The notes under the pieces were generated by a model. That model made no database searches and had not been told where the DNA came from. It saw only the letters and a program-made list of their open reading frames with translations. Positions 6,902-55,254 of a stretch of DNA of 64,000 bases are shown piece after piece. Source of the DNA: Loxodes magnus. Its lineage: Eukaryota > Ciliophora > Karyorelictea > Loxodida > Loxodidae. The position numbers and the translations under genes were made by a program. How positions within the stretch are numbered: the first letter of the stretch is position 1; each line of letters opens with the position of its first letter. The stretch spans positions 248,001 to 312,000 of the forward strand of contig CAMPDV010000140.1 in assembly GCA_946699065.1 (NCBI GenBank), written 5' to 3'.

Positions 6902-9343
6902 ATGGAGTAGCTTAAAGAAAAGAAATATCTCAAATTCATTGGATAGCGTATCTAATACGAGTAAACCGTGCTTTCTTTTGTAATAACTCCTGCTGTTTAC
7001 TTTTATTTTTTAGAGAGCTTAATTTTTTATTCAGACTTTGAATAAATTTTACTTGCTCTTGTTCGAGTTTTGATTATAGAAATCATAAGAAACTCAATAA
7101 AATATCTTAAGAATAGTAAAATTCCTGCGATTGTTCTCTTTACGTATTTCTTGATCAAGACTTTTAAATACTCGCTCTAAAATGTAGACGACACTTGGCT
7201 TTCTTTTATTTACGTGCTACTCGTTCCAATGTCTAACAATTTTTATCTGAAGAATTAGAAACTTTCTCTTATTTTCTTAGCCTTACAAATCTTAGCCAGT
7301 CTTATCCTCTCTGTTTGAACTGGGTTTATTTATAAACTAAATCAAGATCATTTGGTAACTCTTTTCTTTACTTTTGGGTTAAGTTATTGTACTATAATTA
7401 GTAACTAGAATATTACAAGAAACTTTTTTGAAAAGCACTTACTTATTTAGAAATAAGTTAAAACCTTAAAATTCCTAACTAATAACTGCAGCACTGGAAT
7501 TATAATATTCAACAATAACTAAATTATGTACAGTAACAAGCTACTAGGAAAAATGATTGACATTCCATAGTTTTATGACTTTCTAGAAAGAGCAGAACTT
7601 ACCTAAAATAGCTAAGTTAAATTTAAGAATTCTCTAGATTAATATTTCACTGCTAGAAATCAAGAATAGTCAGAAAATTATATCATTAAAGTGGAATAAT
7701 TTTGGAATGAAGAAGATCCATAAAAAGTGATGTACTTCTAAGTCCAGGCATTAAATACCATCTGAGACAATGAAGAAGCAATAATGCTAAATATCAGTAA
7801 TTTAACTGATTCATATAACACTGAAAGATAAAATCTGTCAACTAGGTATAAAACTCTATTTTTAAGAGAGTTTAATCATTAAGTGAGACATCCTGCTACT
7901 TTAATCATGAGTATTGCCCAATAAATCTAAAGTTTTCTGACAACTTACACAAATAAATCTGCTGAGAGTAAAATTTCTGAATCGAATTTCTAGACAATAT
8001 AATAAAATAAAGAGACAATTTCTGAAAAAGGAAGTTAAAATTATCTTGGTAATGAAAATTAAGCTCTTTTCTTAAAGAGCAACTCATAAAATTATCTATT
8101 CACTTGTAAAACTTTTATAGAAAGTTTCAATAAATTGGAAATAAACTAAAAATTAGTTTAATGATGCAGCTAAAAGGCGTAAATCATAGAATAAGAGACC
8201 TAAAATTTGGTAAATATGACACTCTCGATGACTTAATTCTTATATGTTGAGAATCCTAAGTTAGTATATGATATTATTAATGTTAAAAGTTTATTCGTAG
8301 AAGCATTTAACATTATATAATTTCATATTCAAAGTAAAAATATCAAATTAATTTAATTCATAAATTCCGACGTTTCTGAAGAAATTTCCACCGATAAGTA
8401 AAAACTAATCTTCATTTTATAAATACTTCTATAAAATGCTTTGAAGTATACTAACTAAGGAGCTATAAGTCTTGGAATATAAAAGTCCAAAATTCAAGAA
8501 GACAAAACAAAAGAGTTCGTAAATTATAAAATCTGAGTAAAAGATAGTGGAGTCGGAATTAGCGAGGAAAAAAAGAAATGCTTATTTGAACACTTATTTG
8601 ATAAATAAGAAATTGATTTAGACAAACCATAAGGAAGTGGAATGGGACTGTATATAGCGTAGAAGATAGCTTTTCTACTAGGAAGCCAAAACATAAAAAT
8701 AAAATCTGAACTTGGTAAGTATAGCAAATTTACATTTAATATCAAATCGAAAAGCATTAAAAGTGTGAAATAAGACTAAATACTTTAATAGTAAAAATGA
8801 GACAGAAAAATTAAAAGAAAATCTAAAACACAATCACAGTTATTTACAGCTCCTAAAACGAATATAAGTTAAAAGCAAGAAAAAGATTCAAATTTAGACA
8901 AGTTTAAAAAGAAGGAAGATCCAAAAATTCACAAACAACATTAATGCAATTGTTAATAAGTATTAATAGTAGATGATTCAGAAATTATAAGAATGATCCT
9001 TTAAGAGATATTAGAAAGCAAAGGTTTCTCGTTTATGACAGCAGTTAACGGGCAAGAAGCTTTAAGTCTTGTTAATTAAAGAAGTACAAATGAATGTTGC
9101 AGAGAATTCAAAGTAATAATAATGGATTGCGAAATGCCAGTTTTAGATGGTTGGAAAGCTACAAAAGCCATAAGAAAATTAAGCTATAAAGGAGCAATAA
9201 TTGGACATACAGCTTATGCATATGAATAAGATGTTGAAAGATGTTTTAAAGCAGGAATGAATAATGTGCTATTAAAGCCTTCAAATTGTACTGCGATCTT
9301 AGAAGAAATAGAAAAGTACATGATAAGTTAAGAAAATAAATGA
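6902..9343 (+). CDS. HK1: membrane hybrid sensor histidine kinase, 813 aa
   Basis: A hybrid histidine kinase that would autophosphorylate on histidine and pass phosphate to its own receiver domain, at a membrane. Reading TAA/TAG as Gln and TGA as Trp, it has an N-terminal region of several membrane segments (about residues 20-175, e.g. WLSFIYVLLVPM), a PAS-like segment (about 190-230), an H-box NHQVRHP with candidate phospho-His 326 or 330, a kinase ATPase domain with N-box Asn512, G1 box DSGVGIS from residue 548 and G2 box GSGMGL from 578, and a C-terminal receiver with acidic pair 691-692, phospho-acceptor Asp742, Thr770 and Lys792. Five internal TGA codons (7,316; 7,763; 8,162; 8,534; 8,798) are read as Trp; four suit that reading, while 8,798 faces an Arg codon in HK2. 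The gene ends at TGA 9,341. The ATG at 6,902 precedes the first membrane segment. All catalytic boxes are present, so it looks functional. Confidence 0.9.
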
Positions 9344-13915: not shown

Positions 13916-13919
13916 CAAC

Positions 13920-14212: not shown

Positions 14213-14780
14213 AATTATAATAAAGATTTAGTTAAAACAATTGCAATTGCATGTATAAATCCTAGCACTAATATTTTAATTAATTAATTTTAATATAAAG
14301 CATTGGCTATAAAATGCTTTTAAAATTGTAAAAGCTTAAGATAGTAAAGTAGCTATAATTATTTTCTAAAATGATATTACAATATTTAATGCGAAATAGA
14401 GATAATAATTCTAAGTAAACATAGTTAGATAGTTTATATTATAGAAAAAGCATTTCATTGAACTTAGAATGATAGTGAAATACTCCTTATAAATTACTAA
14501 AAAAAAAAATAGTTTCCATATATAGTGAATTATTAAAGACAATATAAAAGGAATTCTTTATTATTTTACCTAGAAATGCATATTATTTTCTTTAAGACGA
14601 ACTTAAAATACTCAGATAGATACAAAACTTAAGAAAATACTAAAATTATAAAATTTAATTAGCATTAGAAGTATAAAACCAGTTGTGTTTCTACTTCTCT
14701 AAAATAACTTTTTAAATAATTTAAATGGATAAGCATAATTAGAATAACCTAAATTATTATCTATTATTTTATTAAATTGC
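14213..14780. other. AT-rich stretch, nothing recognised
   Basis: No feature supported between the GC-rich island and repeat A2. Confidence 0.5.
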
Positions 14781-15285
14781 TTTGCTCATTGTATGAAGGT
14801 GAGCAACAAGGTCATCTTCATCAGAGGTTGGGGAAGTTAAGTACCCATAATCGACTTTATGTCTTCTTCTGCTTTGGCTTGGCCTCGAGACATCTGCTAG
14901 TTTGACCTTCGGCACTGACTTATTATAATTTTTAATTCTGGAACGAAAAAGAAATAATATTGCGAGCTTCATCAGAGGTGGGAAATTTAAGTACCCATAA
15001 TTGACACATGTCGTCCTCTGCTTTGGTGATGCAATGAGACACAATCCTGCCATGTCCTTGGACCTCCAACAAGTATTAAAGATACGAGTATTCTAAAATT
15101 ATATCAGTATTGAACATTTTTATCAGTACTGAATAATTATACCAGTATTGAACAAGGTCTATCAGTATCTGATAATTTTATCAGTAACAAACATTATTGT
15201 CAGTATGAAACATTTTTTTAAGAGCTGCGCACCAATGAGAGTGCTACGCGCTCTATAATCAAATTTATTTATTTATTTATTTATA
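14781..15285 (+). repeat. SINE-like repeat family A, copy A2
   Basis: Same architecture as A1: 5' hairpin, two CATCAGAGG...CCTCTGC modules, CAGTATTGAACA tandem repeats and the shared 3' tail ending in a TTTA microsatellite. The extreme 5' end differs from A1 and A3, but the hairpin survives with a compensatory base change (arms 14,782-14,788 and 14,800-14,806). The middle spacer differs by small indels and substitutions. Apparent antisense coding potential is a by-product of the higher GC. Confidence 0.85.
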
Positions 15286-18060: not shown

Positions 18061-18159
18061 AAAAATATTATAGTGAGTTAACTTTATTAAGCTCATAATT
18101 TCATTTTATTTTACTTGCTTCATTTTATCCGTTTATTTCCTGTCTTCCTATATAAAAAA

Positions 18160-18510: not shown

Positions 18511-18519
18511 GTATTAGAT

Positions 18520-19560: not shown

Positions 19561-21218
19561 TATTTAAATAAATGCTTAGACTTTATACTTAAATTGAGCA
19601 TAATAGAAATATTTTACATTATATTAGAATAAACTTTTTATTTCTGGAATTAAAAATTTTCAAATATTATTATGTCTAAAACATGTTTTTTTCTATTTTA
19701 AACGTACTAATATAGTGATATTTTTTATGAATGAGCAAAATCTTAAGAGATAAGAGACATTTTACTTTTATCTTTTTATCTAATACATTATTTGTGCTTT
19801 TATTAATTAGAAAAAACAATTTTTTCATTTAAGAGAAATTAATACATTATCTTTATATTTAATTTAATTATTCAGATTCTTATTTAGCTATATTTTTTTA
19901 ATTTTTAAATATTAATTCTAAAATTAATAGTTCAATAGCATTATGCCTCTTTTCTTCAATTTTGGAAAGTTAATATTTTAGAGAAGGGAATTTTAAATTC
20001 TTTTAATTTTTTTTTTATTTTTGAAACATTTTCAAAACCTAATAAAAAAATTATTTTTTTATAAATCTCGAAATTTTTTCCAGCTTTATTCCCTAAATTT
20101 TCACGTAGTGTAAAACTCAGAGCAAAAAAACAAAAGTAAATTTTTAAACGATTTCATGCTTTACATACCCTTATCTTTTCATTTTTCTTTACAATCATTA
20201 AATTATGCAAAATTCTAAAAAAAAATTTTAATTTTTTTTTACTTTTTTGTGATTTCCTCAAAATTTTAAAATTTTGATTCAAAATCAAAAAAATTCTTAA
20301 ATAAAAAGCATAAACAAAAATTTTTATTTTTTTTAATTCGAAATAAACAATTTAAATTTTAATTTTTTTCTTTAAACCAAATCCAAAACAGAAAAAAACT
20401 TTCAATAATTTTTTTCAAAATAAAAGATTTTCCCTTCAAATAAAAATATAATTTTCATCAAATACCATTTTAAAAAAGTTTCTAAAATCGAATTTAATTG
20501 AAATTTTTTTTTTAAATTCCCATTATATTTTTCAAGATTCTTTTATGTTTAGAATTTTTTCTTGAAGATTTATTCCTTTTTTACTTTTTTCATCCGAATT
20601 TCCCTACTTTTACTTTGTTGGAAATATTCCCTCTAGTGATAAACGCTGAACAAACAAATTTTTTTAATTTTCACAAATTCAGGCTTTGATATTATGAAAT
20701 TTTCGGAAGAAAATATAAAATAATTACATTTACTATAAGAAAAAATATTTTCTTATAGTAAAAAATTTAATTATACATAAAAATTAAAAATATTATAATT
20801 AAACTTAACAAAACAGTAAGCATGCTTAAATTAAGTAACTAGTAACTAAAAGATTATATTACTTAACTCAAAATTCAAAATTGTTTACTTAGAAAATAAT
20901 TAAAATTTTTTTATTAATGATATGCTTAAATATTCTAAAATTTCTTCCTTTTACTTAAAAATAAATAAAATAAAATTAGAACATAATTTAGAACTTAATT
21001 TAGAAAATAATTTAGAAAGCAATTAAAAAAATAAACTTAACATCATTAAAAATAAATTAATATTACTCAAAAAAATTATGGACTTAAAAAAATCCTAAGT
21101 CTAAAATCATTTATACTTTAGTAATAAAGTGTAAGAAATTAAGAAGAACATACTCAATAACAAAAGACTTGATAAGATATTTTAATTCTAAAATATAAAA
21201 AATTAAAAGCTGTCTTAT
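19561..21218. other. very AT-rich low-complexity region
   Basis: Dense homopolymer A and T runs, particularly 19,850-20,620, and no supported gene. A perfect 15-bp palindrome lies at 20,729-20,762 (separate entry). Confidence 0.6.
20729..20762. repeat. perfect 15-bp inverted repeat with 4-nt loop
   Basis: Arms TTTACTATAAGAAAA and TTTTCTTATAGTAAA flank AATA. It lies in the long intergenic region downstream of the convergent WD40 gene. Function is unknown; it could form a hairpin in RNA or be a protein-binding palindrome. Confidence 0.75.
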
Positions 21219-22780
21219 TCAAGGATTTAACTTGATATATCTCTGTTTGTCCTCTACACTCATCTAAGCATTAACCATATTACAATTCTAAAATCTTAAT
21301 CCATAGTCACCGTAAATCTTATTCCAATCAGTCTACTAAATTAGTAAATAAATTTAAATTTGAAACTTACCTAAACTTATTATTATTAACTAATATTATT
21401 CTAAACACCATTCAACAATCTACCTATGTTCCATCTTCGAAAATTATAATCTTTAGCTTAAGCAGAAAATATACTTTGATTACTCGATACCAACCAATTA
21501 TTGTCTTTCGATATTGACAAACTACCCACTTAATCAGTATGACCCTATAATACACATATTTGCTAACTAGATTAAATATACCATATTCTTATAGTTTTAT
21601 CAAAAGATCCAGACATTATATACTTGTCGTCAGATGAGAATATAACCGAATACACAGAAGAAGAATGTCCCGAAAAAACCTTTATACATGATAATGTCTT
21701 GACGTCCCATAATCTCACCATTGTATCATAACTTCCCGATACGATGAACTCTGAATCACTGGATATAGCCACAGTATATGCAGAATATGTATGACCACTC
21801 GTGGTCTTACAGGTACCTTTTTTGATGTCCCATAGTTTAAGAGTCTTATCACTGCTACCCGATACAATGAACTCAGAATCACTGGATATAGCTACATCAT
21901 TTACATAATTTGTGTGACCACTCATAATTTTACAGGCACCTGTCTTGACGTCCCATAGTCTCACCGTATTATCATAACTTCCCGATACGATAAACTTTGA
22001 ATCACTGAATATAGCCACAGCATTTACAGAATTTTTATGATCACTCATGATCTTAAAGATGCCTGTCTTGACGTCCCATAGTCTCACCGTATTATCATAA
22101 CTTCCCGATACGATAAACTTTGAATCACTGGATATAGCCACAGCATTTACAGAATTTGTGTGACCACTCATGGTTTTACAGGTACCTGCAGATATGTTGT
22201 AGATTCTTAAGGTTTTGTCTCTACTTCCCGATACGATGGAGTTTCCATTAGAGGAGATGGCAACGGAATTTATATTACTAGTGTGATCGATAAATATATG
22301 AGGGAATTCAGTAGAGATGGAGGTGAGATTAGAGTTGCTGAGGTTGCAATCGACAAATTTAGTGTTACGAAGGTTTGATAATTGGAGATTGGAGTTGGAA
22401 AAATTGCATGATGTTAAAATAGTATCGGATAAGTCAGAGCTTGTCAAATCGATGTTTTAAAAATTTAAATTAGTGAATTAGAAATTCATGTAATTCAACA
22501 TTGTTATGGCATTGGCAGCTGCTATTTACATCTTTGGCTGATTCTTTGCTAAATTCAAGATCTATAACATGTATTGTTGGTTCTTTTCTGATTTTAATTG
22601 AATTAAATCGCATAAGATATTAGATTTTTTACATATGCTGGCCACACTCAATATATTATTCATGATGTAATTTGCATCTATTTACTTATTCTAAAATTCA
22701 TTGAGGATATTTTGAAGGTGTTACACATTTTCAATTTTTAACTCTTAAGGAGGTTATTTTACGATTTTAACTTGTTACAT
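21219..22780 (-). CDS. seven-blade WD40 repeat protein, 508 aa
   Basis: A probable protein-interaction scaffold. The N-terminal part (about 1-95) is helical and includes AAANAIT, followed by pentapeptide-like repeats (about 100-155, e.g. LSDTILTSCNFSNSNL) and seven WD repeats from about 160 to the end of exon 1, each with a GH...SV...S..S pattern and most closing with WD or WY. The seventh repeat (CVLQGHTDQVGSLSIS) appears only when TAA and TAG are read as Gln, giving a complete propeller. Translation starts at ATG 22,780, reads 470 codons, crosses a 35-nt intron (21,336-21,370), and ends at TGA 21,219 after 38 more residues. Several central repeats are almost identical in DNA, implying recent expansion or homogenisation. 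A standard-code prediction would see only the middle of this gene. The specific role is unknown. Confidence 0.85.
21336..21370 (-). other. 35-nt spliceosomal intron in the WD40 gene
   Basis: Read on the minus strand it begins GTAAGT, contains TTTACTAAT as a candidate branch site and ends TTTAG. It falls between codons. Reading continues as DWNKIYGDYGLRFQNCN and reaches a TGA 39 codons later. Confidence 0.7.
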
Positions 22781-24645
22781 TTATTATTATATTTGTTGCT
22801 AGATTTATTATTATGCTTGTTTTCTTTGGATTTAAATATTAACTTATTCTTAAGTTTGCAGCAATTATCTTTAAATTTATTCCTGATTCTAAGCAATTAT
22901 ATTTTATTGATTGATATACTTATTTATAAAAACTGTAAAATCTTTTATATTCGCTCTTTACTCCTAACTCACACTCATAATCTCTTACAATACTTGAAAG
23001 GAAACTTCTTATATTATTTTATAAATCTAATTATTGTCCTAATAACGCAAAGTACTTACTCTCTTTATCTCATTCTACAGTCCTTCAAATTTTTTAACCA
23101 AGTTATTCAAAGCATTTATATTACTAATGCATCTAATCTGATAGCCACTAACATCCACTCATTTCTTTCTAACATAGTGTCTACGTAACTTATTTCACTA
23201 TTTCACTGAATAACCAATGTAATTTCATGTTATTTTACTGTTCTCTTATCATTCTTGCCTTTTCCTTGTTTGCTTAGTCAGATAAGTCTTTTATCAATTA
23301 CATAAAATTAGCTTATTACTCGAACTTTCTTATTTACTACATGAAATATTCCTAAATTTGTAAATCCTTTAGATTATTTTCTTATATATTTATTATTTTA
23401 TTGTGAGTCTGGCATTTATATGCACCAGTTACTTTTAGAACATTTTTTATACATTTTGCACACTGAATACAGCCACAAATTAATACTTTAGGTAATCTTT
23501 TACCTTAATCAAAGACTTTGCTACAACTTTAACAGATATTTAAATCCATTACTTATAATATACTTAAAAATAGTAATTCATAAAGATTTGTAAATTACAA
23601 TGAAAATAAAATAAATTAAAAATAACAATTAATCAAAATTAGGATATTATTTTAATTACTAAAATGTAACTAACAAAATAAAGAAACTAATATTAATGTT
23701 TAAAATACTAGAAAACTAATAATTAAACAATATTCAGTAAAATTATTATTAACAAATTGTATTAATAAATAATACATCAAATTCACTAATAACAAAAAGA
23801 TAAAATGTTTCTTTATATTAAAATATTTTTAAATTGATTTTCTTTATATAATATAAGGAATATAGTTAAATACATTAAAACTACTTAAAATTTTTTATTT
23901 TTATAATATAAAATTTTTAAAAACTTAAACTGCAAATATTATTCACGAATAAGACTTAATAAAACATTATTAATAAAAATTAAAATAAATTTTAAATCTA
24001 ATTAGAGCAAAAAAATTAAAAAGAATAACTAATTATAAATTTAAGAGGAATTAAAGCAATTTAACCAAAACAAATTTTAAAATAATTAATATAAACATTT
24101 ATATTCTCGATTTAATATGTGAAAATACATTTTTTATATTTAATAAAGCTTTTAAGTATTTAAATTTGTTTATAACATTCATAAATTTAAAATCCTAAAT
24201 CTTGCTGCTTGCAGAACATTTATTATTATTAAAATTAGAAAAAATATTTTTTCACTAGATGAAAAAAATGAAAAAGCCAAATTTTTTTAAATTTTAATAA
24301 AATTTTAATAAAAATATATTTAAATGTTTTTGATGAGTAAAAAAGAATTTTTGATCCATTTAAATTATTTAATATCTTGGAATACTGATTCAATAAACTA
24401 AATACTTCAACAAAAAAAAGATTAATTCTACATTTTTATTTATAAATAGCATTTAAAATTATTATTTATAATTTCATTAAATTAAAAAATTTTTAAATCA
24501 TCTAAAATTACGATTCTGAAAAGATAAACAATTTCCTTTGATCTATGCAATTAATGATCAAATAAATACTAAGTTAACTGTAAAAAATATAAATAAAAAA
24601 AATTATAAAATGAAAATAAACTAAAAAAAATTAAAAATTCTCCTT
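22781..24645. other. AT-rich intergenic region, nothing recognised
   Basis: The hydrophobic plus-strand frame near 22,772-23,188 has T-rich composition without codon bias and overlaps the WD40 start, so I do not treat it as a gene. The remaining sequence shows no homology. Confidence 0.5.
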
Positions 24646-27682: not shown

Positions 27683-30079
27683 TCATATTTTACCTTTATA
27701 GAGTTTCATTAAGAAGTCCCAGGAAAAAGTGCTTAAAGAATCTATGGAATCTTTTGAGTGCCTATAAAATATACTAGGCTCCGCTTTAGAATAATTTAAG
27801 GAAAAGTCAATTAATTTTAAATTTTTGCTCATTTCCTCCAGAGATTCAAATCCATCTTTTAATGCATGAACACTTTCTCCATGACTTCAAGTTGAATGTT
27901 TTCCACGGGGAATTACAGGATTAACAAAAGTTTTTCGTAAATTAAGATTAAAATGCCAAAAAGATCTAAGTATCCAATCACAACTTACAAATACAGTGTT
28001 TAGATCAGGTCAAACATAATTAGGAATTATAAAGTTTCAATGTCATTCTGGCTATTCTAAAGTAATCTGAAATAAGTTATTATATTAAGAGTAATTTTTA
28101 GGATAGCTTGTAATTGGTATAGCAGCTATTCTTTTTCCATAGTCTTTATTGTGAATAAATATTCGATTTACTCACTTGCTGTATTCATAAAAATCTTTTG
28201 ATAGGATAATATCATCTTCACATCAAAGCACTGACTTAGCTCCCAAATATTCAAAAGTCAAATTAAGTAGAAAATAGGCATTTTAAGCACACTAAAATTC
28301 TCCTTCCTTTTGCAAATCGATGAATTCTTAAGGGGTGTTAGTTCTAGGATGCATAACATGGATAATATTTAGAAAATTTCTACTTTTAAATTAATTAATT
28401 ACTTAAGTAACTTCTTACGAGTTACCATCTTAAGAAATAATAATAATAGCTTTCTTTATTCCACCTGCTTTCTCTATTTACATCAGAGTATCTCTTAAAA
28501 CATTACTTCTTTTGAAAGCAGGCATTAAAATAGGATACATTTCATTAATATTTATATTTAATCTTTTAATTATGTTCTAGTATTCAAGCCTTACTTATTC
28601 ATAAATCTCTGGATACCATTAATTCGATTTATAGTCAATGCAAGATAGACTGTGCTTAGTAACTTCGATAAATCTTTAGTTTACTATCTAACCCAAATGT
28701 TATTTACCTATTTTAAACACATTTCGCAAATAATACTTTTAATTTCTGTTTCCTGGCAAAAAATTTAAATGCTTTCCCTATAGAATATGCTCAGAGTAGA
28801 AGTCAACAATACTACTTTTCGTTCTGGAGTTTTAGTTTTGGTCTTAGCTTAGTAGCTTATATTACCTTTTAAGGTAGAAATTATAAAACATTAAAGGATT
28901 TAAATTCCCTACTATGTCGATACTTCCTTCTTCTATTGCTTCTTTCCTAATTACTTAAGATCCTATTCTAAAACGAAGTCCTGTTTGCATTAGCCGATAA
29001 TAGTTTTATTTAAATATTGAAAATATTTATGAGTTTATTATGATTTAAGCTTTAGGTATAAAATCAGCTTTTTTGCCATCGAAAATTGAAGTTCCATATG
29101 CTGTTAAAAGAATCTAAATGTAGTTTCAAACTCCTGACTTTATTGAAGTACTAGTTTCAAGGTATTAACAGCCTTCATCTGAACCTAGTTCTAGTAATAT
29201 ATTTCATTAATCTTTTTAGTTATTAATAAGATATAAGAAATAACCCCAGTGATAGCTAAGCTTGCTACAACCTTACATCTTATTTCCTAGAATAGCAAAA
29301 CGCCTTTCTTTCTTACTATTTTATTATCCTTCTTCACTCTGGTTTGCTTCACTAGTATTTTAGCTTTAATTTTATAACTCACTAAAATTGAATTTAACCC
29401 AAACAGAAATGAAAAATTCAGGAAAGTCTAAGGAACGATAAGGTCCATGAATTATAAACTACTAATTCTTTAGTAAATTGATTAAAATCTTAGAGTGACT
29501 GATCTCTTCTGTTTACTTTTTATTTTTTACTTAATTATAATTTTTAGATGCATAATCATTTTAAGCTACTCTGCTAGACTAAGCTTTGGCATTTATTTAG
29601 GTGTGTTTTTATAAATTTTAGGTTTTATTAATTAAGTTTTAGTTTATCCTTTAAGCTATTTTAAATTATTTAAACCGCTTAACAAATTTCTAAGTTAGCG
29701 AATATTAGAGACTTTGATCAGGATATTAAATCTACTGAGTAGAAATTTATGAGGCTTTTTATTTAGAATATTATTAAGAGGAAAACTTAACTCTCTTAAA
29801 GCTTTTCTAGGAAGTATTATTTTATAAACCAGTAAGATCTTTCTTATTAGCATCTGCTTCTTAATCTACCTCATTCCTTTATTTTTTTGTTAGTAAGATT
29901 TAAGAAATATTCTAAACTAATTAAATCTAGAAAGCACGTTTCTTAGACACTTTCTCATTAGTTCTATCATTTTCTATCTAAAAGAAGTTTTAATAGTCAG
30001 ATGCTCAAACAAAGAGGTAAAAAGCTAAGAAAATGAAAATAAATAGAATTAAGAGATATTTAAGCTTCTATCTTACCAT
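27683..30079 (-). CDS. GT1: LamG plus GNT-I-like glycosyltransferase, 798 aa
   Basis: A type II membrane protein, probably Golgi. ATG 30,079 begins MVRQKLKYLLILFIFIFLAF, a signal anchor, followed by a long Gln/Lys/Asn-rich stalk (about 30-230), a LamG/concanavalin-like domain (about 230-430, with FPEFFISVWVKF), and a C-terminal glycosyltransferase domain of N-acetylglucosaminyltransferase I (GT13/POMGnT) type. There WCEDDIILSKDFYEYSKW (W619 to about 636) carries the Glu-Asp-Asp metal/nucleotide-sugar motif, and a later D-W...R...PRG.H...W segment resembles the acceptor end of the family. Several Trp are TGA, and paralogue GT2 has TGG at some of the same positions. It ends at TGA 27,683. The stalk is much longer than in GT2. 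The EDD motif is complete, unlike GT2 and GT3 (EMD). The exact sugar and substrate are unknown. Confidence 0.7.
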
Positions 30080-31197: not shown

Positions 31198-32157
31198 TTA
31201 AAAAAGAACAATAATAATAAAAAATGGAAGGATTCAAAAAAGGTTTCTACACCACCTCCAAAAAGTTGGAGAGGAAACCTGAATCCAATCTTGGATAGTC
31301 TTCTTACCCTTAACCCTACTTTTTCTTAATTCTAACAACCTGAAGAGGAACAGAAACAAGCTCAGAAGACAACACATGAGATAACCCATCTCAGAAGAGA
31401 AGTCCAGAAAGTAGATGAAGTCTGCTCTGCACCAGGAGGTCTCAAAGTTCAATCCCTCTGGCCAGATGAGCATGGAACAGCTCATCAAAGTGGTACTAAA
31501 CCTCCAGGAAGAAGTTAGGAAACTGAGAAAGGACAATGAGAAACCGATGGAAAGACTCAACCTAGAGGAAGGAATAGAATCCAGACTAATGTCCTAAGAA
31601 AGAGAACTAAGCGCTTTCTGAAACATATCTTAAGACCAGAGTAGCTAATCCTAAAATTAGCTTCAGAAACAATCTGATATGAGTATTAGACTGGAAATAC
31701 TAGAAAAGAAATTAGATGAACAAAGGGGAGATTCAATGATGATCGAAGAGACCAATAGGAAGACTAAGGTTAAACTCCAAAAAGTAGTGAAGAAATGTTA
31801 CTACTGCAATTCAACAGAACACTTATGAAGACGCTGCAAGGAATTCCAAAATTTCAAGACGTAGTACTGGAATAAATAAAGAAGAATACAAGTTCAGCAG
31901 AGGAAGAAAAAACAAATATAGTAGAGACAAATAAGAGAAAGATTATACTTAAATGAATAAGGATACATTTACAAGAGAAAATTTAATTAGAAATAAGGCT
32001 AGATCCGGAAATGACAAGAGTAATGGGAGGAGAGAGGAGTAGAGACATCTAAAACTTTATTTTTAACACTGGAGCAATCTGGTGTCCAGCGTGAAGAGGT
32101 GAAAATCCTCGAAAATTGTTAAACTTAATTTATCCTATTATTATTAAAAAAGAACAA
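31198..32157 (+). mobile_element. zinc-knuckle element ZK1 with 14-bp target duplications
   Basis: A compact element (31,212-32,143, about 930 bp) flanked by identical 14-bp direct repeats at 31,198-31,211 and 32,144-32,157 (TTAAAAAAGAACAA). It carries one reading frame from ATG 31,224 (MEGFKKGFYTTSKKL), interrupted by a frameshift before 31,415. The frame continues as MKSALHQEVSKFNPSGQ, a coiled coil, a CCHC zinc knuckle (CYYCNSTEHLWRRC, Trp = TGA 31,826) and a basic tail. Domain order resembles Gag or the ORF1 protein of non-LTR retrotransposons, which bind the element RNA. No reverse transcriptase or endonuclease fits in the element. The 5' leader is only about 12 nt. GC content is well above the flanks. 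This copy looks inactive because of the frameshift. Confidence 0.8.
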
Positions 32158-34375: not shown

Positions 34376-36379
34376 TCAAATACTTCTGTTAAGTTTTTCT
34401 ATAAGAAAGTCATATGAAAATGGTCCATTAGTTTGATTAAGATCTTGTTTAGCTATACAATAAAAAGAAGGATCTTAGTCCTTGTAGTCTACTTTAAAAT
34501 CGATCAACTGTAGTCTTGATATTAAGATCTCAGTTTCTTCAATTTTACGTTTTATAGGATGAACATTATCTTTGTCAGCTCAGCTTATATGCTTACCTCG
34601 AGGTAGGTAGGGAGATAAATGAGTTTTCCTTAAGTTTGCAAATAAATACCAAAAATTACGTATAACTCAGTCACATCTAATAAATTGCATTTTCAAATCA
34701 GGCCACAAATAATTAGGAGTAATAAAATCTCAATGCCAATTAGGTCTTTCGTAAGTAAATTAAAATAAAGTTTTATAATCGCTAAAATTTCTAGCTTCTT
34801 AGGTTAAAGTTACGAATCCGATTCGCTTTCCTCATTTATCGTTATGAATTATCTTTCGATTTACTCATTTGCTGTATTCGTAGAAATCTTTCGACATCAC
34901 TATATCCATTTCACATCATAAAGCTGATTTTGCCTTGAGATATTCAAAAGTTAAGTTAAATAAAAAAAAGGCATTTGAAGCGCATAACGTTTCTTTAAGT
35001 TTTCTACCTTTGAAAAAAGAATTAGGAATGGAAGCTCTTGGATGTTGAATGTGAATGATATTAAGAATGCCTCTATTTTTGAAGTCGTTGATTACTTTTT
35101 CAACTTAAGTAGTTCGGCAGTCTTGAGATATTAAAATTATTGTTTAATTTATGCTATCAGCTGCTTCTAGACTCTGAAGGACTTCTTATAAAATATAATG
35201 TCTTTTATAAACAGGCATAAGAATAGGATATAGCTCTTCAGCATTAAGTTATCGTTGGGTTATAATGTCATCATATTATTTTTTGATTTACTCATATAAC
35301 TCAGGATAATATTCCTAGAATTGGTAATTATTACAAGCTAATTCACTTCTAATTCAAGGAGTAAAACTTGTTTCTACTATTTATCCATAATGATATTATC
35401 CTATCTGAAATGCATTTTCTATTTAAAAATATTTTAAATCCTTTTTTTACGTAACAAAACCGTAGAACATTCCATATAAATCCTTCTTCTAAAAATAATC
35501 TCTTAAACTACTTTTGAAAGCTGAATCTTCTTCTATTTTTTAGCTTAAAATTGAATATTCATTAGTTATATAAAAATTTGAAACTATAAAAGAGTTCAAA
35601 TTTCCAACTATTTCATTTGATCCTCGTTCTACTGAAAATTTTTGAACAACTTGAGCTCCTAGTTTAAAATGAATTCCTGTCTACATTAGTCTATAATAAC
35701 TGCTTTCGTACACTGATACCACTTTCTCGTTTACTCTCAGTTAAGCTTTCGGTTTATTAAAGTTTTCTTATTTATCAAAGAAAGAAGTTCCAAGTGCAGT
35801 TAGAAGAAGTTGTATGTTATATCACTTTTATTATTCTATTTAGGTATCAATTCAAATTTCTTAGCAGCCTTTATCTGAGCCAGTTTCGAGTAGAATTTAT
35901 CATGATTGATCGTTTTTATTAACAAGATATAAAAAATACCCTCAGTAGTAACTAAGAGAACCACAGCCTTCTAATTTATTTCCTAGAATAGCGTATCTTC
36001 TTTCTGTAAAATGTTGCGTAAGGTTTGAAAACAAGATATTATTAAAATCGAACTTGATTCAAAGTGAAATATGGAGTTCTGGGAAATCAAAGAAGTTCAA
36101 CGGGCCATAGACGATAAATTATTGCTTGGGTTTTATATTAATTTAGAACTAATTACTTGAGGGCTATTTATAATTTCAGCTTATTTCGGATTATATTTGA
36201 TTAAGAACTTTTTCCTTTCGATCACTCAAAACTTTCTAGTTATCATATGCTTTCTAATAGTTAAGAATCTTTATGTCAGATAATTTTTTAGTGTTTTATT
36301 AGTAAATAACGTAGGAGAAAATTGAGATAGATATAATGCTTGCTAGTGACAGATTAATAATGAGCCTTAAAATTTTCAT
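34376..36379 (-). CDS. GT2: LamG plus GNT-I-like glycosyltransferase, 667 aa
   Basis: Same architecture as GT1 with a shorter stalk: signal anchor (MKILRLIINLSLASIISI), a short coiled stalk, a LamG-like domain (about 95-290; FPELHISLWIKF and YYWGYFLYLVNK, both Trp = TGA) and a GNT-I-like catalytic domain beginning near residue 400 (ELYPILMPVYKRHYILQEVL). The metal/nucleotide-sugar site is WCEMDIVMSKDFY at residues 488-500, so the second acidic residue of GT1 is Met here, which may impair catalysis. Further TGA codons stand for Trp in KWVNRK, DKWGKR, HWDF, CDW and SWADK. Start ATG 36,379, stop TGA 34,376. About 1.4 kb is an inverted near-copy of GT3, in alternating identical and divergent blocks. 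Confidence 0.7.
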
Positions 36380-38684: not shown

Positions 38685-40721
38685 ATGGCCAATTGAAAAA
38701 TTTCAATAAGCTTTATTGTCGTTTGTCTGCTATCCCTTGTTTTTTATTTTTAGTTTTAGAATATGAAAAAAAACTTTTCGAGCCTTTAATAGATAGACAT
38801 TTCAAAATCCAATAGGTTCGATGAAAAAACACATTTCAAAATGGTCAAAAATAAATAAAACTTTTTCGATAGAAACTTGAACTAGACACTTTAGATTATA
38901 AGATAAGCTCCTTTGGATGATGGATTCTAGATCAAAATAAAACCTTAACATTAGTTTGTGATTTATGGTCCGATGAATTCCTTTGATTACCCAGAACTCC
39001 ATATTTCACTTTGAATCAAGTTCGATTTTAATAATACTCTTTAATCGTAAGAAAAGAGTGATTCAAAATAATAGAATAGATAAGCCTTTCAAAGCACATA
39101 AAATAAATTTTATGCCATCTTAGGAAATAAATTGGAAGGCTGTGGTTCTCTTAGTTACTACTGAGGGTATTTTTTATATCTTGTTAATAAAAATGATCAA
39201 TCATGATAAATTCTTCTCGAAACTGGCTCAGATAAAGGCTGCTAAGAAATTTGAATTGATACCTAAATAGAATAATAAAAGTGATATAACATACAACTTC
39301 TTCTAACTGCACTTGGAACTTCTTTCTTTGATAAATAAGAAAACTTTAATAAACCGAAAGCTTAACTGAGAGTAAACGAGAAAGTGGTATCAGTATACGA
39401 AAGCAGTTATTATCGACTAATGTAGACAGGAATTCATTTTAAACTAGGAGCTCAAGTTGTTCAAAAATATTAATTGGACAAGGAAATTTTTGAGAAAACT
39501 GGAAATATGAATTCGTTTTACCTTGCAAATTTTTATATAACTAATGAATATTAAATTTTAAGCTAAAAAATAGAAGAAGATTCAGCTTTCAAAAGTAGTT
39601 TTGTTGAATATTTATAAGTGTTAGTTTTTAGGGAAACTTTTTATTCTGGATTTTATTATAAAGCCAATAAGTTATAAATACTTGAAAACGCATTTAAAAT
39701 AAATAAATAACATTTTGGGTCTATTTTCAATAAAAGATTTAATCCTTCTATAAAATATAAAATTAAGTGCTAAAGCTTTACTTTTAAAGAAGATGATCCT
39801 GAGTTATATGAGTAAATCAAAAAATAATATGATGACATTATAACCCAACGTTAACTTAATGCTGAAGAGCTATATCCTATTCTTATGCCTGTTTATAAAA
39901 GACATTATATTTTATAAGAAGTCCTTCAGAGTCTAGAAGCAGCTGATAGCATAAATTAAACAATAATTTTAATATCTCAAGACTGCCGAGCTCCTTAAGT
40001 TGAAAAAGTAATCAACAACTTCAAAAATAGAGGCATTCTTAATATCATTCACATTCAACATCCATAAATAAAAATTCATAAATGATTCATTAGAAATTAA
40101 AAAGCGGATGAATTTAAAGAAGCTTCAAATGCCTTTTTTTTATTTAACTTAACTTTTGAATATCTCAAGGCAAAATCAGCTTTATGATGCGAAATGGATA
40201 TAGTGATGTCGAAAGATTTCTACGAATACAGCAAATGAGTAAATCGAAAGATAATTCATAACGATAAATGAGGAAAGCGAATCGGATTCGTAACTTTAAC
40301 CTAAGAAGCTAGAAATTTTAGCGATTATAAAACTTTATTTTAATTTTAGATTGATAAACCTTTTTAAAGAAGAAATTTCATCATCCCTAGATATATTTGG
40401 CCTGATATTAAGCATGATTTTTCTGGATGTGATTGAGTGAAAAGAGCATTTTGGTATCTGAATTCAGTCTTAAGAAAAACTATTTTAAATCCACTTTTAA
40501 CTCGAGGAAAATATGGGATTTAAGTTGAACAAGATCTTTTAAACACAACATAAAATTATTAGATTTGATAAGAAAACAAATATATAAAATTGCTTGATTT
40601 TAAAGTGGATTATAATAAAGCCTAACCTTTCATAATTGAAGACATTGATTTTGATCATCTTAACAGGAGTCAAGCTTTTTCTTGGGATTTACAAATGGAA
40701 ATTAATTATGGAGAAATTTAA
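38685..40721 (+). CDS. GT3: LamG plus GNT-I-like glycosyltransferase, about 678 aa
   Basis: Third paralogue, opposite in orientation to GT2. ATG 38,685 starts MANWKISISFIVVCLLSLVF (Trp4 = TGA), a signal anchor, then a stalk, the LamG-like domain (YPELHISLWIKF) and the GNT-I-like domain with WCEMDIVMSKDFY at residues 501-513. CDWVKRAFWYL downstream again has Trp as TGA. Alignment with GT1 and GT2 places the natural C-terminus at about 40,718, where the next codon is TAA (40,719), not TGA; the first in-frame TGA is 40,917. Either TAA acts as stop here, or 66 unrelated residues are added, or the original TGA was lost. Blocks almost identical to GT2 alternate with diverged blocks, suggesting gene conversion. 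The Met replacing an acidic residue is shared with GT2. Confidence 0.65.
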
Positions 40722-44130: not shown

Positions 44131-45112
44131 ATATCTAAATATACTTAATTAAGTTAAATTTAAGTTATTCAGAGAAGGGATTGTTTTCTTAATAGTTTCC
44201 TACTCCCTATCCAACTGATAGATACTTGAACTCTTGGTGGTCTGTTCCTCCAGTCACTTTAAAGTCTTCGCAGTGGATTGCTCCGAATATTGCTTTTCTT
44301 CCTATAAAGATTCCCACTGCTAGTTGGGTAGAATTAGGTTAGTTCGTTTCAAATTTTCTTTTGGATCTCTTTTCTTTATCTGCATTTCCTTCAGAGATGG
44401 TTTATTCTTCCACAGATAAAACATTTTTTCTTAAAGTATCTTTCTTTAGTTAATTCGATTTGTTTATTCTAGACCTCTTCCAGCTCCATTGGAACGGAAT
44501 GTGCTGTCTAGATCTTGATATTCTCCATTTTAAGGTTAATATTGCTTTCAATTTTCTCTAACTTGATGTGCATGCTCTCGTTCATATCATATAGATATTC
44601 CAACTGCCTGTCGAATTCGTCAATTCGAATATTCATGGCAGCTTAGTTTTTGTTTCTAGGAGCATGCATCTCCTCGTCGTCCAGGTGTCATTGTTGTTTG
44701 GGCAAGCTCCATAACCTATTTCTCTAGGTCTTAGTTATTGCTAATTAACGCTATAATTAATTTAGCCATTTCCTCTTTAGCCATTCCGAGTATTTGTTCC
44801 TTGTTTATCTCACCGAGGTCCATGTATGGTGAGAAGTTCCGAATTTGCGTCTGAAAGTCGCTTATCTTCTGCTTCTTTGGAAGATTTTCCGTTGAGGTAG
44901 TAGCATGGCTATGTTTCTGAGGCTGTCTGGGAGGAGTTGTTTAGAGTTATTTTTAGGTCTTCTGGGGAGAATGTTATTATTAGAGGGTCTAGGTTTGGGT
45001 TTTAGTCTTTAGAACTTCCTGCTTCCTCTCCTCCTTTTAGACTTTGGAGGAGGTGGTGTAGAAGCCTTTCTTAAGACCTTCCATATTATTCTATATATCT
45101 AAATATACTTAA
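44131..45112 (-). mobile_element. zinc-knuckle element ZK2 with 18-bp target duplications
   Basis: Element 44,149-45,094 (946 bp), flanked by identical 18-bp repeats ATATCTAAATATACTTAA (44,131-44,148 and 45,095-45,112). One minus-strand ORF begins at ATG 45,084 (MEGLKKGFYTTSSK), has a Pro/Thr/Gln-rich region, coiled-coil segments and a CCHC knuckle (CFICGRINHLWRKC, Trp = TGA at 44,391-44,393), then a basic tail. A small frameshift seems present in the middle, around the segment that resumes at MNESMHIKLEKIE. The 18-bp duplication is long enough, even in AT-rich DNA, to be a real insertion footprint. This copy is diverged in sequence from ZK1, ZK4 and ZK5 but keeps the layout. Confidence 0.8.
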
Positions 45113-46519: not shown

Positions 46520-48207
46520 TCAAAATTTTTACAGAGTTTATTTCTCTTCTTGTTTATCTCTTTCCTGGATTTGCTCTTCTTGACTCTAATTTTTATCTTA
46601 GCTTTAACTCATTCTATTTTCATATTCTTATTAAAATTAATTTTAATTTTAATACTATTTTTGAATTAAATCCTCTTCTTGCATTTAAGTTTTAACATAT
46701 ATTACCTTAGTAAATGAAGAATGTGGCTTTACCTTTTAATTTTCCTTTTCAGGCTGCAAATCTTCTACTATACTACTAGTGAAATTTACCGCTGAATTTT
46801 GATTTTTTTCAATTAAATTGCTTGCATCTATGCTATCTTCATTAACTAATCCTATTTAGGAGTTTTTAATACTAATAAGAGTAAATTTATTTTTTAGTTT
46901 GCTTAGCATTTAAGATTATTGCTTGGTTGGAATAAAATCCCTGTCTAAGGTACTTTTGATGTTCTTAATTAATTGATCCCTTGAAATCTAAATTCTTTAG
47001 TTTTATGCCTGAATATGGTTATCTAGCAATTTAGGATTATTTTTTAACCTAAAAGCGAATCTAAACAAATTCTAAGAATCAGGCTTAATTTGCTTGAGTA
47101 GAGTTCTTTGTTTAGATATAATGATAGATCCTAATATGCTTATTACTCCTATACCCACTACTAGCATTACTTACAAAATTAAAACTTTTTTCTAGTCTGC
47201 ATTTATAGAAATTGCTGCTATAGTAGAAACATAGGAAATAAGTAATGAAGCTATAAGAATATTTAGAAAGTTATCTATTTAAATTTAAGTAAAATTTCTA
47301 ATTTTATTAAAGTTTTGACATAGTGAATTATTTACTCCTATCATTTAAGCTTAAGTAAACTTTAATTATCATTGGCTTCAATTTGAATTTCTTAATTAGT
47401 TTATATTTCATCTATTGAATTGACTTAATTCTCATATTTTTTCTATTATATCTAAATTTCTTGAACTATACTAATTATTTCATCTGTTTAAACTATTTAG
47501 TTACTGTAATAAGTGGAGAAGTTTGTTTAAGTAATTTTATGAACTAGTTATTTTGATAGCATTTTTTTGTGATATTGTTATATATCAGATTTGATTGACT
47601 AAAAATTGCTCTATAATAGTTTATATTTCTAATAAATTTTATTTATATAAGTTTTATAATATATTTTGTATATTTCTTAGTTACTTACCAATGTTTCAAT
47701 ATCTCGTTCATATTTTGCTTTTATATTAATTAGCATTTCATTTAATTATTGGTTCTTATCTATTAGTCTTTATATATTATGTTTAATTTCTTTTATTTCT
47801 AAAGTAAATAAGTTCTCATTAGATTAATTAATTATTTGATTTTATATTACATTTCTTAAATCAGCAGTTTAATTTTAAGGTTGTTTGCTCTGAAGATCAG
47901 GTAAATAATGATTATTTGAATTATCAGGATTAGTAATATTATTTTATTTCTTATTTGAAATTTAGCAGAATTGTTAATTAGTATTATTTAAAAATTAATC
48001 TTAAGTTTATGTTATTTTTGAATACCATAAAAGGATATCTTTATTTGAATTTTAATTAGGATTTTAAGGTATATCTTTAGAATTCTAACTATCTAGGATA
48101 ATATCTTATTTTTAGAAAGATTTCTTAGGTAATCGTTTCGTATCTCTCGCGGTATTATTTTAGGCGGTTAATCTGTTCCTCTATTTATAGGTTGATTTCA
48201 CTTTCAT
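46520..48207 (-). CDS. coiled-coil protein with two membrane segments, 549 aa, one intron
   Basis: I do not recognise a family. ATG 48,207 opens MKVKSTYKQRNRLTAQNN, a basic Asn/Gln-rich N-terminus, followed by a long coiled coil (about 110-290, e.g. LEIKEIKHNIQRLIDKNQQL), two hydrophobic segments (about 302-322 NILIASLLISYVSTIAAI and 334-356 LILQVMLVVGIGVISILG) and a hydrophilic Gln/Glu-rich C-terminus ending at TGA 46,520. A 38-nt intron (47,298-47,335) is needed: without it the coiled-coil frame and the membrane frame do not connect, and with it they join as LKLKWQENFTQIQ. One Trp there is TGA. The two close membrane segments after a coiled coil suggest a membrane-anchored tether, by inference only. 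The start lies about 280 bp from the end of the eEF1A remnant. Confidence 0.6.
47298..47335 (-). other. 38-nt intron in the coiled-coil membrane protein
   Basis: On the minus strand it begins GTAAAT and ends AATTAG. Removing it restores one frame between the coiled coil and the membrane segments (phase 2). Its size and ends are like the 35-nt intron of the WD40 gene. Confidence 0.6.
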
Positions 48208-48489
48208 AATACGCTACAATTAATATCCACGTTGAAGAGAGTTCCTAAGTAGTTTTAATGGGACGCGTATGAATTTGTTTTCCGGTTTTTGACTACAATT
48301 TTTAAGTAGTTACCTTAATAAATTTATTATTAGGTTTACTTATTTAATTTGTAGTTACTCCAAATCTTTCGTTTGGAGATTTTAATGCACCTGCTTATGC
48401 TTTTCCTATGAATTTGCAGCTTCTTTTAAATTAATTAAAGAAAAGTCACTATTAAAGACTAGTGAATTCTATATTTCGTCCATTTTTTT

Positions 48490-49416
48490 GCACTAAAATT
48501 TTAATTATTTCTTTTGTCTTTATTAGTTAGTCTTTTATGCTAAATACTATTTAATCTCCTGGAATAGCCTCGGTTTTTTTGAAAGGGATATGTTTCAATT
48601 GACTTTGCCTCAGAACTTAAATTTACAGGAGCGAATGTTTCAATCATACCTAGTCTTAAAATTATTTTTCCTACTGGAACTGTTCCAATACCTTTGTTTT
48701 TATATAAATTTAAAGAGAAATACGAAGTGGCTTATCATAAAGTTTTTTTGGCGGTTAAATATTATCTAAGCACTATAAAAGATTTTATCCTTAATATCAT
48801 TCCATATTATAAGATAATTCAACTATACTATCTCCTACTTAACCAGAAATAGGAGCAAATGGAATTGTTTATGTGTGGTATTCAAGCTTCTTCAAATATT
48901 CTTTACTTCATTCTAAATTTATTCGAACCTTTACTTATTATAATTAACTAATTTATCATCCATTTTATTTATTCCTACTATCATCTGTTTTACTCCCAGA
49001 GTAAAAACAAGAAGAATATGTTCTCTAGTTTGTCCTTCTTTACTAAATCCCATTTCGAATTCTCCTATATTTGCTGATACAATTAGAAGAGCAGTATCAG
49101 CTTAAGAAGTTCCAGTAATCATTTTTTTGATAAAGTTTCATTGTCCTGGAGTGTCAATAATAGTATAATCATGATTTTAAGTTTAGAATTTTCATAAAGA
49201 AACATCAATTGTATTTCCACATTCGCATTCTTATTTAAGTTTATCCAAAATTCAAGCAAACTTAAATGAACCTTTATCTATTTACTAAGTTTCTTTTACA
49301 AGCTTTTGAATATTGGGCTAATCAACACCTCCACATTTATAAATAAGATATCCAGTTGTATTAGATTTACCAGAGTCAACATTACCTATAACTAGCTGAA
49401 ATTAATCCCTTATCAT
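48490..49416 (-). pseudogene. eEF1A-like pseudogene, domains I and II
   Basis: A degenerate copy of translation elongation factor 1-alpha. From ATG 49,416 it has the P-loop [64 protein letters not shown] and [11 protein letters not shown] frameshift near 48,900 then leads to IPFAPISGQVGDS and NMEWYQGQ, a second near 48,710 to [10 protein letters not shown], and a third near 48,580 to EAIPGDQIVF, after which homology stops, so domain III is missing. The switch region RERG-ITID of true eEF1A is altered (ECECGNTID). The invariant Trp positions in FAWILDKL (49,252), SLWKF (49,192) and the M-P-W-Y-K-G-like site (48,797) are all TGA. It is clearly dead, but it is the best decoder of the genetic code in this window. 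Confidence 0.85.
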
Positions 49417-51854: not shown

Positions 51855-52806
51855 AATTTCTTTTACAAATAAGAATACAAAATTAAGTGTTTGGCGTTCT
51901 TGGAGGTATTTCAACCTCTTTCCCGCCAGACTCTAGATTGCTCTAGAGGCTTAATATAAAAGTCTGAAAATCTCTACAACTCTTCTACTTGCCATACATG
52001 TTGTCTTTAATTCTTCTTTCACCTAAATGCTAGATGTCCTTTTTCTTGTAAATTTTCCCAAATATGCTACAGTATAATCTTTCTCTCTTGATAGCTTTAT
52101 AAATTATTGTTTCTTCCTTTTGATCTTCAACTACTTCTAATAGTTTCAATATTCTTACTTGAAATTGAGAAATTTCTAGCATCTTTTCCATAGATGCTTT
52201 TGAGAGTTACAATAATAGCATCTTTTTGCTCGTAGTTTAGATTTAAATCTTGAGTTATTTTCACCTTCAATCATCATTGGATCATTCCTTTATTCTTTCA
52301 ATTTCATTTAAAGTTGCAATTTGTACTGATTTTCTTCTACTTTTCTAATTTGCTAATCAGTTCTTTCTACTTCTATTGTTAGTTTTGAGATTAACTGTTC
52401 TAGTCTTGTGATATGTTTCAAAATGCGTTAAGGTCTCTTTCTTAGGTCAGGAGTCTCGATTCTATTTCCTCTGCAAGTTCAAGCTTTTCCATTAACTTAT
52501 TATTGTCTTTCTTCAACTTTTTAACCTCTTCCTGGAGGTCTAGCACCACTTTAATCAGCTAACATAGCTTATTTACTATTATGTGATGAGATTAGAGACT
52601 TCCGAGCGCATAATAGTATTAATCTATTTCCTAGGCTTTTCTTCATAGGTAGGAGATTCATTCTGATGGGTATCTTTTTGTTAATATTTTCCTAGTCCTA
52701 GCCTTTCTAGGATGTCGTTAACTCCTACTTTTTAGGAGCCGCGAAGAATCCTGGTTTGAATCCTGACATCTTTTATTTAATATCTTTTTTCTCTAAATTT
52801 CTTTTA
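51855..52806 (-). mobile_element. zinc-knuckle element ZK4, probable 11-bp target duplication
   Basis: Minus-strand element. ATG 52,769 begins MSGFKPGFFAAPKK; frames are interrupted in the middle, then continue through a coiled coil to a CCHC knuckle (CYYCNSQKHLWKRC) whose Trp is TGG (52,188-52,190), where ZK1 and ZK2 have TGA. AATTTCTTTTA at 51,855-51,865 and 52,796-52,806 would be an 11-bp target duplication bounding a ~930-bp element, the same length as the others. At 11 AT-rich bases this is suggestive only. Frameshifts make the copy inactive. Confidence 0.7.
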
Positions 52807-54073: not shown

Positions 54074-54554
54074 TTATATATATATTTTTTAAAACCGCCA
54101 TAATTGTTCGAAGGTGAACAACAAGGTCATCTTCATCAGAGGTTGGGGAAGTTAAGTACCCATAATCGACTTTATGTCTTCCTCTGCTTTGGTTTGGCTC
54201 GAGACATAAGATTCTTAGACCTTCGGAACTGGCTTGGCTTAGTTTATTTTTAATTCTGGAACTAAAAAGAAATAATATTGCGAGCTTCATCAGAGGTGGG
54301 GAATTTAAGTACCCATAATTGACACATGTCGTCCTCTGCTTTGGTGATGCAATGAGACACAATCCTACCATGTCCTTGGACCTCCAACAAGTATTAAAGA
54401 TTACGAGTATTCTAAAATTATACCAGTATTGAACAAGATTTATCAGTATCTGATAATTTTATCAGTAACAAACATTCTTGTCAGTATGAAAGATTTTTTT
54501 TAAGAGTTGCACACCAACGAGAGTGCTACGCGCTATATAATCAAATTTATTTAT
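54074..54554 (+). repeat. SINE-like repeat family A, copy A3
   Basis: Third copy of family A, closest to A1 at the 5' end (shared TATATATTTTTTAAAACCGC). It has fewer CAGTATTGAACA units than A1 and A2. Its 3' tail ends exactly where the HK3 remnant breaks off after its G2-box-like GSGM, so it inserted into or truncated that gene. Confidence 0.85.
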
Positions 54555-55254
54555 AAGAAAAATCCATTCCGCTTCCTGTGACTTTGTCTAAGGCTATTTA
54601 TTGTCTATCAAATAGTTAATCAAATAAATATGTTTATCTTTCTTCGCTTATTTCAACTTCACTATCCTTTACTTAGATTTTATATTTTATGAATTTATAT
54701 TTTTATCTTACTATTTGCTTTTTTAAATCCAAGATAATTAAATTCTTAATTAGTTTTCTCAAGAATTTGACAGTAAAATCTGAAATTTGAAGAGAATCTT
54801 TACTTATCATTAAAACTTCTTCAGAGCTTCAAATTTTTGAATTATAATAACTTGATAGGCTTACTTTGTATATGAAATTTGATAGCTTTAAGCATTTCTT
54901 CGAATAAGTCTTTAACATTAACGACATCATATACTAGCTTATGCTTTTTATCTTATAAAAACTAAGTTAAGGAGAGTGTCATATTAAATAAGTTTTGAGT
55001 TTCTTGCTCTATTATTCCCGTTTTATAGTTGTATCATTTAGCTATTTTTTCTCAATTTACTTAATCGTAGTTTTCTTTCTTTAGTTTATGTTTTCTTTAA
55101 TATGATCTGAAATTTTAACTTTTTCATTAAGACTAAAAATATGACTTTCATGTAGTTATAATATTAACCTATGCTTATTTATTATTTTTCAGAGTTTTCT
55201 TTATAGGAATCTTTAAGAGATTAATCATTAATCTCGCTATCAATTTTGATTTCC
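54555..55254 (-). pseudogene. HK3 remnant, kinase half
   Basis: Minus-strand remains of a third hybrid kinase. It aligns with HK1 from the region after the H-box (IIEQETQNLFNMTLSLTQFL versus IIEQETQNLVNMTLSMTQFL in HK1) to the G2 box, where repeat A3 cuts it off. The G1 box is DSEVEIS, losing both glycines of DSGVGIS, and at least two frame changes occur. The receiver domain is absent. The Trp column of HK1/HK2 is TGA here too (55,034-55,036). The other end is cut by element ZK5, beyond which the gene resumes at 56,258. Confidence 0.8.

Follow-up and report, generated by a model that had tools for sequence, protein, structure and literature searches.

The ambiguous nuclear code of Loxodes magnus seen from a genomic window: UGA as tryptophan and main stop, with UAA as a probable minority stop

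Introduction

The macronuclear assembly of Loxodes magnus spans 706 Mbp, is translated with NCBI table 27 and contains abundant LINE-like elements, according to the available passages of PMC11441545. In those passages, UGA is given as the only stop codon; UGA and UAA, and not UAG, are described as depleted before stops; and introns are very short and of mixed lengths, with a mode of 17 nt (PMC11441545). By the same source, 95% of heterotrich introns have 15 nt and the remainder 16 nt. Besides, a tRNA-Trp with a 4-bp anticodon stem, which raises UGA readthrough, has been reported for Loxodes (work cited in the available parts of PMC13092985 and PMC12005148). The reading of UGA as tryptophan inside genes is a rule already described for this ciliate group, i.e., it is published and ordinary for the lineage.

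Here, this rule is examined in the window, i.e., the whole stretch of 64,000 nucleotides that was analysed (contig 140, positions 248001-312000, in an assembly of 705,730,643 bases in 7,843 contigs). A sequence-only reading of the window had claimed that UAA and UAG encode glutamine and UGA tryptophan, with context-dependent stops, and this claim is supported by (i) the paralogues of the window; (ii) 90 kinase domains; and (iii) gene ends of the histone, Rab, GT and eRF1 genes, all of the same genome. The source is almost certainly karyorelict nuclear DNA with the ambiguous code 27, in which UAA and UAG would be read as Gln, and UGA as Trp internally and as stop at gene ends. The main result is that the published ambiguous code can be confirmed from bare sequence, without transcripts, and that its context rule is visible in one gene family.

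Codon swaps between paralogues of the window

The histidine kinase paralogues comprise: (i) HK1 (6902..9343, + strand), a hybrid histidine kinase with a HATPase_c domain (Pfam PF02518, 3.5e-15) and a response regulator (PF00072, 5.1e-23); (ii) HK2 (62246..64000, - strand; PF00072 2.8e-22, PF02518 2.6e-14), a paralogue of HK1 that runs off the window; and (iii) HK3 (54832..55050, - strand), a short kinase fragment found as an inverted-repeat arm to HK1 with 74% identity. HK1 and HK2 form an inverted pair of 1,680 nt with 84% DNA identity and a dN/dS of 0.30 (code 27). By paralogue alignment, HK1 has in-frame TGA at 7316, 7763, 8162, 8534 and 8798, and its stop is likely the TGA at 9341-9343; HK2 has TGA at 63826, 63775 and 63055, and TAA TAA at the HK1 stop column. 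The swap that had been claimed at one kinase column, with TGA in HK1 (8162), TGG in HK2 (63425-63427) and TGA in HK3 (55034-55036), lies where it was placed, and so does the TGA of HK1 (8798) opposite AGA in HK2. The TGA at 63775 in HK2, which the sequence-only reading had omitted, is opposite TAT in HK1. HK1 belongs to a large kinase family with at least 150 matches. Among the matches listed, 13 are on this same contig, 15 to 53 kb apart, along with GT genes; several copies of the family have like scores, as if duplicated recently.

The GT paralogues are named after the domains that the sequence-only reading assigned to GT1 (27683..29500, - strand), i.e., LamG-like and glycosyltransferase-like. 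GT2 (34376..36260, - strand) has TGA at many Trp columns, and GT3 (38901..40721, + strand) is inverted in orientation; all three were delimited by paralogue alignment, and their in-frame translations gave no Pfam matches. The likely stops are TGA 27683-27685 for GT1 and TGA 34376-34378 for GT2, and GT3 has TAA (40719-40721) at the stop column. At the LamG ISVW/ISLW column, the TGG of GT1 (29399-29401) and the TGA of GT2 (36059-36061) were found as reported, and GT3 has TGA too (39012). Further swaps, beyond those noticed earlier, occur at GT columns 117, 519, 530 and 542. The dN/dS values are 0.29 for GT1/GT2, 0.35 for GT1/GT3 and 0.64 for GT2/GT3. The last two genes form an inverted pair in which patches of 96-100% identity lie between diverged stretches, as after gene conversion. 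The GT family is much expanded in the genome: at least 150 copies were scored of 457 candidates, and many of those on small contigs (e.g., C1170, C1320 and C426) have equal scores.

Taken over HK1/HK2 and GT1/2/3, 52 codon pairs contain TGA, the partner being TGA in 22, TGG in 10, TAA in 6, GAA in 4, TAT, AGA and TCT in 3 each, and GTT in 1. Hence, TGA is opposite TGA or TGG in 32/52 pairs; TAG was opposite neither of them in any pair of these genes. Stop columns account for 3 of the 6 TGA/TAA pairs. Once these three are removed, TGG represents 10/27 of the non-TGA partners versus a TGG frequency of 0.0055 in the genes (binomial 2e-16, the pairs not being independent). In any case, the paralogues have Arg, Glu, Ser, Tyr or Val opposite some TGA codons of the window.

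Four zinc-knuckle frames, aligned as paralogues, provide a smaller comparison. At the H-L-W column, ZK1 (31400..31950, + strand) and ZK2 (44200..44900, - strand) have TGA (31826 and 44391-44393, respectively) and ZK4 (51950..52700, - strand) has TGG (52188-52190), all at the places given before; ZK3 (55289..56089, + strand), which had been left out, has TAT (Tyr). No Pfam match was obtained for ZK1, ZK2 or ZK3, and ZK4 gave only a sub-threshold match to Sec3_CC (E 0.0097).

An eEF1A remnant (48122..49398, - strand; PF00009, 7.3e-36), with a frame change between its halves, aligns in its first half to PDB eEF1A (E 4.6e-63). The sequence-only reading had counted on TGA at three invariant Trp sites in this copy. 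The three codons are present (49254 and 49194 in the first half, 48799 in the second), but they do not carry the weight given to them: a fourth TGA (49140) falls on an invariant Arg, and another Trp site is occupied by TAA (48841). This copy should not count as evidence, since it is decaying and TGG to TGA needs one transition.

In a WD40-repeat gene (21260..22999, - strand), the eight Trp codons counted within 21212-22780 are all TGG; the sole TGA in that range (21260-21262), past the last blade, is probably the stop of the gene. As for other features of the window, an element about 500 nt long and richer in GC is present in three dispersed copies (5862-6361, 14779-15277 and 54094-54559), with pieces 71-96% identical to the first. 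It ends in a 66-nt stretch, of which a fourth copy (62%) is at 17999. This element gave no Pfam match, a coding-like frame having been tried, and no Rfam match; Rfam gave no matches within the window.

Codon meaning in kinase domains of the genome

The meaning of these codons was examined genome-wide in the top 90 of 136 listed kinase domains, with stops masked for alignment. When TGA was tabulated at conserved columns (agreement of at least 50%), as the sequence-only reading had suggested as a check, 46/50 were at Trp; the others were at Ile (2), Glu (1) and Leu (1). The TGG control gave 77/84 at Trp. In total, these domains contain 93 TGA codons, of which 67 are in scored columns and 46 in Trp-majority columns. 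The per-column likelihood points the same way: for TGA, W is best (220.3) and F next (39.6); for TAA and TAG, Q is best (291.8 and 134.7, respectively); and the controls agree, with W for TGG and Q for CAA. At the DxWS column, the 90 domains have 45 TGG, 33 TGA and 12 Phe/Tyr codons, and neither TAG nor TAA. The second kinase Trp column has 15 TGG, 26 TGA and no TAG, and the third 32 TGG, 13 TGA, 4 TAA and no TAG.

Codons that stop

UGA is the main stop of this genome. Altogether, 93 anchored gene ends were counted: 83 TGA, 10 TAA and 0 TAG. Six more, in which a TGA comes 1-5 codons after the TAA, were set aside as ambiguous.

Histone-fold genes (H3, H2A, H2B and relatives) were fetched at 30 of 31 listed loci, and four of them (L053, L054, L062 and L063) were left out, their ends not being in view. 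The 26 ends in view comprise 24 TGA, 1 TAA and 1 ambiguous. The TAA end (L042) reads TAA TAA TAA, and the next 139 codons, as far as it was read, lack TGA. The ambiguous one is the H3 variant L039, in which TAA is followed by TGA five codons on. A second H3-like family, of six copies (L039-L044) that start with MVRTKQS and end with GEK..., has TAA in two copies where the others have TGA. Both copies of eRF1 end in TGA, as judged by eye.

Regarding the Rab/Ras genes, 60 of at least 150 matches were fetched, and 43 clear prenylation ends gave 40 TGA and 3 TAA. The TGA ends follow a CC, CXC or CaaX-like motif, 38 of them by rule and two (L128 and L141) by eye. The TAA ends are (i) L145, with motif CLIF and the next TGA 22 codons on; (ii) L149, with motif CNC and no TGA in 42 codons; and (iii) L160, with motif CCN and no TGA in 24 codons, where an in-frame TGA lies upstream of the motif and the frame is less sure. 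Five ambiguous Rabs (L151, L153, L170, L171 and L177), one with an unsettled frame (L150) and 11 without a motif were set aside. In 15 Rab loci with the C-terminal motif in another frame, candidate GT-AG introns were found that include lengths of 16, 17, 19, 20 and 22 nt, many of them starting with GTAAG; only candidates that restore the frame were considered, so that multiples of three are invisible, and some candidates, as well as the other lengths, reflect chance.

Finally, the GT family (20 copies fetched of at least 150 matches, and the three of the window) contributes 23 ends: 17 TGA, 6 TAA, 0 TAG and 0 sense. In the five fetched copies with TAA, there is no TGA in the remaining stretch read (up to 49 codons). 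GC content drops after both types of GT ends, from 0.27 to 0.19 for TAA and from 0.26 to 0.18 for TGA. The ends of the HK family were discarded as a stop-codon test because the end column is not conserved: in 20 other copies, fetched of at least 150 matches, the HK1 stop column has 6 TGA, 3 TAA and 11 sense codons.

The ten TAA-ended genes are L042, L145, L149, L160, L188, L189, L190, L193, L200 and GT3 of the window; they represent fewer than ten events, since L189, L190 and L193 are close relatives. These ends suggest that UAA is probably a true minority second stop, while still Gln internally, and that UAG would be Gln only. A code of this kind would coincide with neither table 27 nor table 28, and the same reading takes as its UGA decoder an unpinned tRNA-Trp(CCA) present in about 100 tandem copies.

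Context dependence near the stop

The GT family shows context dependence within its own alignment: the Trp near the stop is TGG, and the Trp codons upstream are mostly TGA. A Trp located 12 codons before the stop is encoded by TGG in 20/20 fetched copies, as well as in GT1 and GT3 (GT2 has Tyr). Twelve upstream Trp columns in the GT copies of the window, hand-picked and leaving out columns in which TGA or TGG faces other residues, have 24 TGA versus 9 TGG (Fisher 2e-8 against the near-stop TGG, the copies not being independent). The full-length GT matches listed have 3-7 TGA within a 135-codon stretch.

There is no TGA in the last 20 codons of the Rab and histone ends. This absence says little, given that these ends have few Trp codons and that the first TGA past the match or motif was itself scored as the stop. 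Glutamine codons were counted at 27 Rab ends in frame 0, 24 histone ends and 20 GT tails, the latter adding no Gln codons. TAA makes up 15/73 of the Gln codons near the stop versus 81/222 farther up (Fisher p 0.014), and TAG 25/73 versus 63/222. A role of UAA as second stop would also explain a depletion of UAA, but not of UAG, just before stops, a pattern on which PMC11441545 and the present counts agree.

Decoder tRNAs and eRF1

A tRNA-Trp(CCA) pattern matched the genome 130 times versus 20 in a reversed control. Of 100 matches listed, 96 are in two tandem arrays with identical matched letters: 48 on contig C67 (482323-491201, L224), spaced about 187 bases apart, and 48 on contig C148 (155464-168457, L225), about 241 bases apart. 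In three array copies, two from C67 and one from C148, ARAGORN and cmscan show a tRNA-Trp(CCA) whose 27-43 pair is broken (A.C or U.C) and whose anticodon stem has, in consequence, 4 bp; with the same programs, two copies on C110 have an intact 27-43 pair and a 5-bp stem. Pattern matches on C12 and C33 gave no tRNA.

A non-exhaustive pattern search gave no tRNA-Trp(UCA), the decoder that had been proposed for checking: its pattern had 23 matches versus 32 in the control, and none of the three fetched scored as a tRNA. The arrayed tRNA-Trp(CCA) with the 4-bp stem is instead likely to decode UGA. The pattern for Gln tRNAs (UUA/CUA) matched 29 times versus 70 in the control; of three matches fetched, L235 is no tRNA, and L234 is one, has UUA as its anticodon and, in our judgement, resembles tRNA-Gln. 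The third, L233 (C1668:14622-14722), is of the same kind, except that its anticodon loop has 8 nt (UUAA) and that of L234 is normal.

Two eRF1 genes (L001 and L002, contig C196) are located 35 kb apart, both with the motifs RAQNIKS and FLCENTF. The usual eRF1 motifs are TASNIKS and YxCxxxF.

From the literature, it can be proposed that the unpinned tRNA-Trp(CCA) misreads UGA by relaxed pairing where eRF1 is weak, and that eRF1 would outcompete this tRNA only near the 3' end of the transcript. Such an advantage of eRF1 near the 3' end has been proposed for Condylostoma, in the available portion of PMC4967479.

Discussion

Due to the AT-richness of the genome, in which TGG to TGA and CAA to TAA are single transitions, the in-frame TGA, TAA and TAG might be plain nonsense mutations in pseudogenes. 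The eEF1A copy, with its frame change, its TGA at an invariant Arg and its TAA at a Trp site, does look so, and the GT2/GT3 dN/dS of 0.64 points in the same direction; however, in-frame TAA and TAG are also carried by the fetched kinases, histones and eRF1, and the HK1/HK2 pair keeps a dN/dS of 0.30. The DxWS column, with 33 TGA and 0 TAG, argues against nonsense decay as well, since decay should produce TAG from TGG as often as TGA. Kinase and histone data refute this explanation genome-wide, and its overall probability is very slight; for the eEF1A copy alone, it is still the likely one. If UGA were instead read as Cys, as in Euplotes, or as selenocysteine, the kinase columns should not favour Trp so widely over the next residues (F, Y and I); no support for either residue was found, and the chance that one of them applies is practically nil.

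The choice between the two tables named by the sequence-only reading, which had placed the organism in a lineage with code 27 (karyorelicts) or 28 (Condylostoma), bears on the stops. In a code of the Condylostoma type, UAA, UAG and UGA all serve as stops, and the TAA that occupies the stop place in 10/93 counted ends would suit it. Nevertheless, TAG ends amount to 0/93 and TGA ends to 83/93, and the candidate introns of 17, 19, 20 and 22 nt, recognised by motif only, are unlike heterotrich lengths. Table 28 is, then, highly unlikely, and the data fit code 27 far better, with UGA as main stop and no UAG among the counted ends.

Within the karyorelict reading, the hint of a UAA stop goes beyond what is published for L. 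magnus and is the part worth following. No statement on a UAA stop for Loxodes was found in the literature searched, a search that Seah 2022 lay outside of; its abstract reportedly points to UAA stops as a small minority. Should UAA stop translation too, (i) ambiguity in this lineage would extend to another codon, its near-twin UAG remaining unambiguous; (ii) what tRNA-Gln and eRF1 each tolerate would be separated; and (iii) some gene ends would be overrun by gene finders that were trained only on UGA.

Comparison with known systems

Three described systems are closest to the one analysed here. NCBI table 27 (karyorelicts; Parduczia, Loxodes) shares with it the reading of UAA and UAG as Gln and of UGA as Trp internally and stop at gene ends; the difference lies in UGA being published as sole stop (available passages of PMC11441545), whereas TAA is at the stop place in 10/93 ends here. 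Table 28 (Condylostoma) has in common that all 64 codons can be sense, that stops are context-dependent and that there is a tRNA-Trp(CCA) with a 4-bp stem (PMC4967479 and PMC13092985, in the parts available), but here UAG stops 0/93 ends and UGA dominates. As for the 4-bp-stem tRNA-Trp(CCA) of Blastocrithidia, Condylostoma, Blepharisma and Loxodes, the likeness comprises the broken 27-43 pair, the CCA anticodon and a genome in which UGA stands for Trp; its arrangement in two tandem arrays is what differs here, the available parts of PMC13092985 and PMC12005148 making no mention of copy number in Loxodes.
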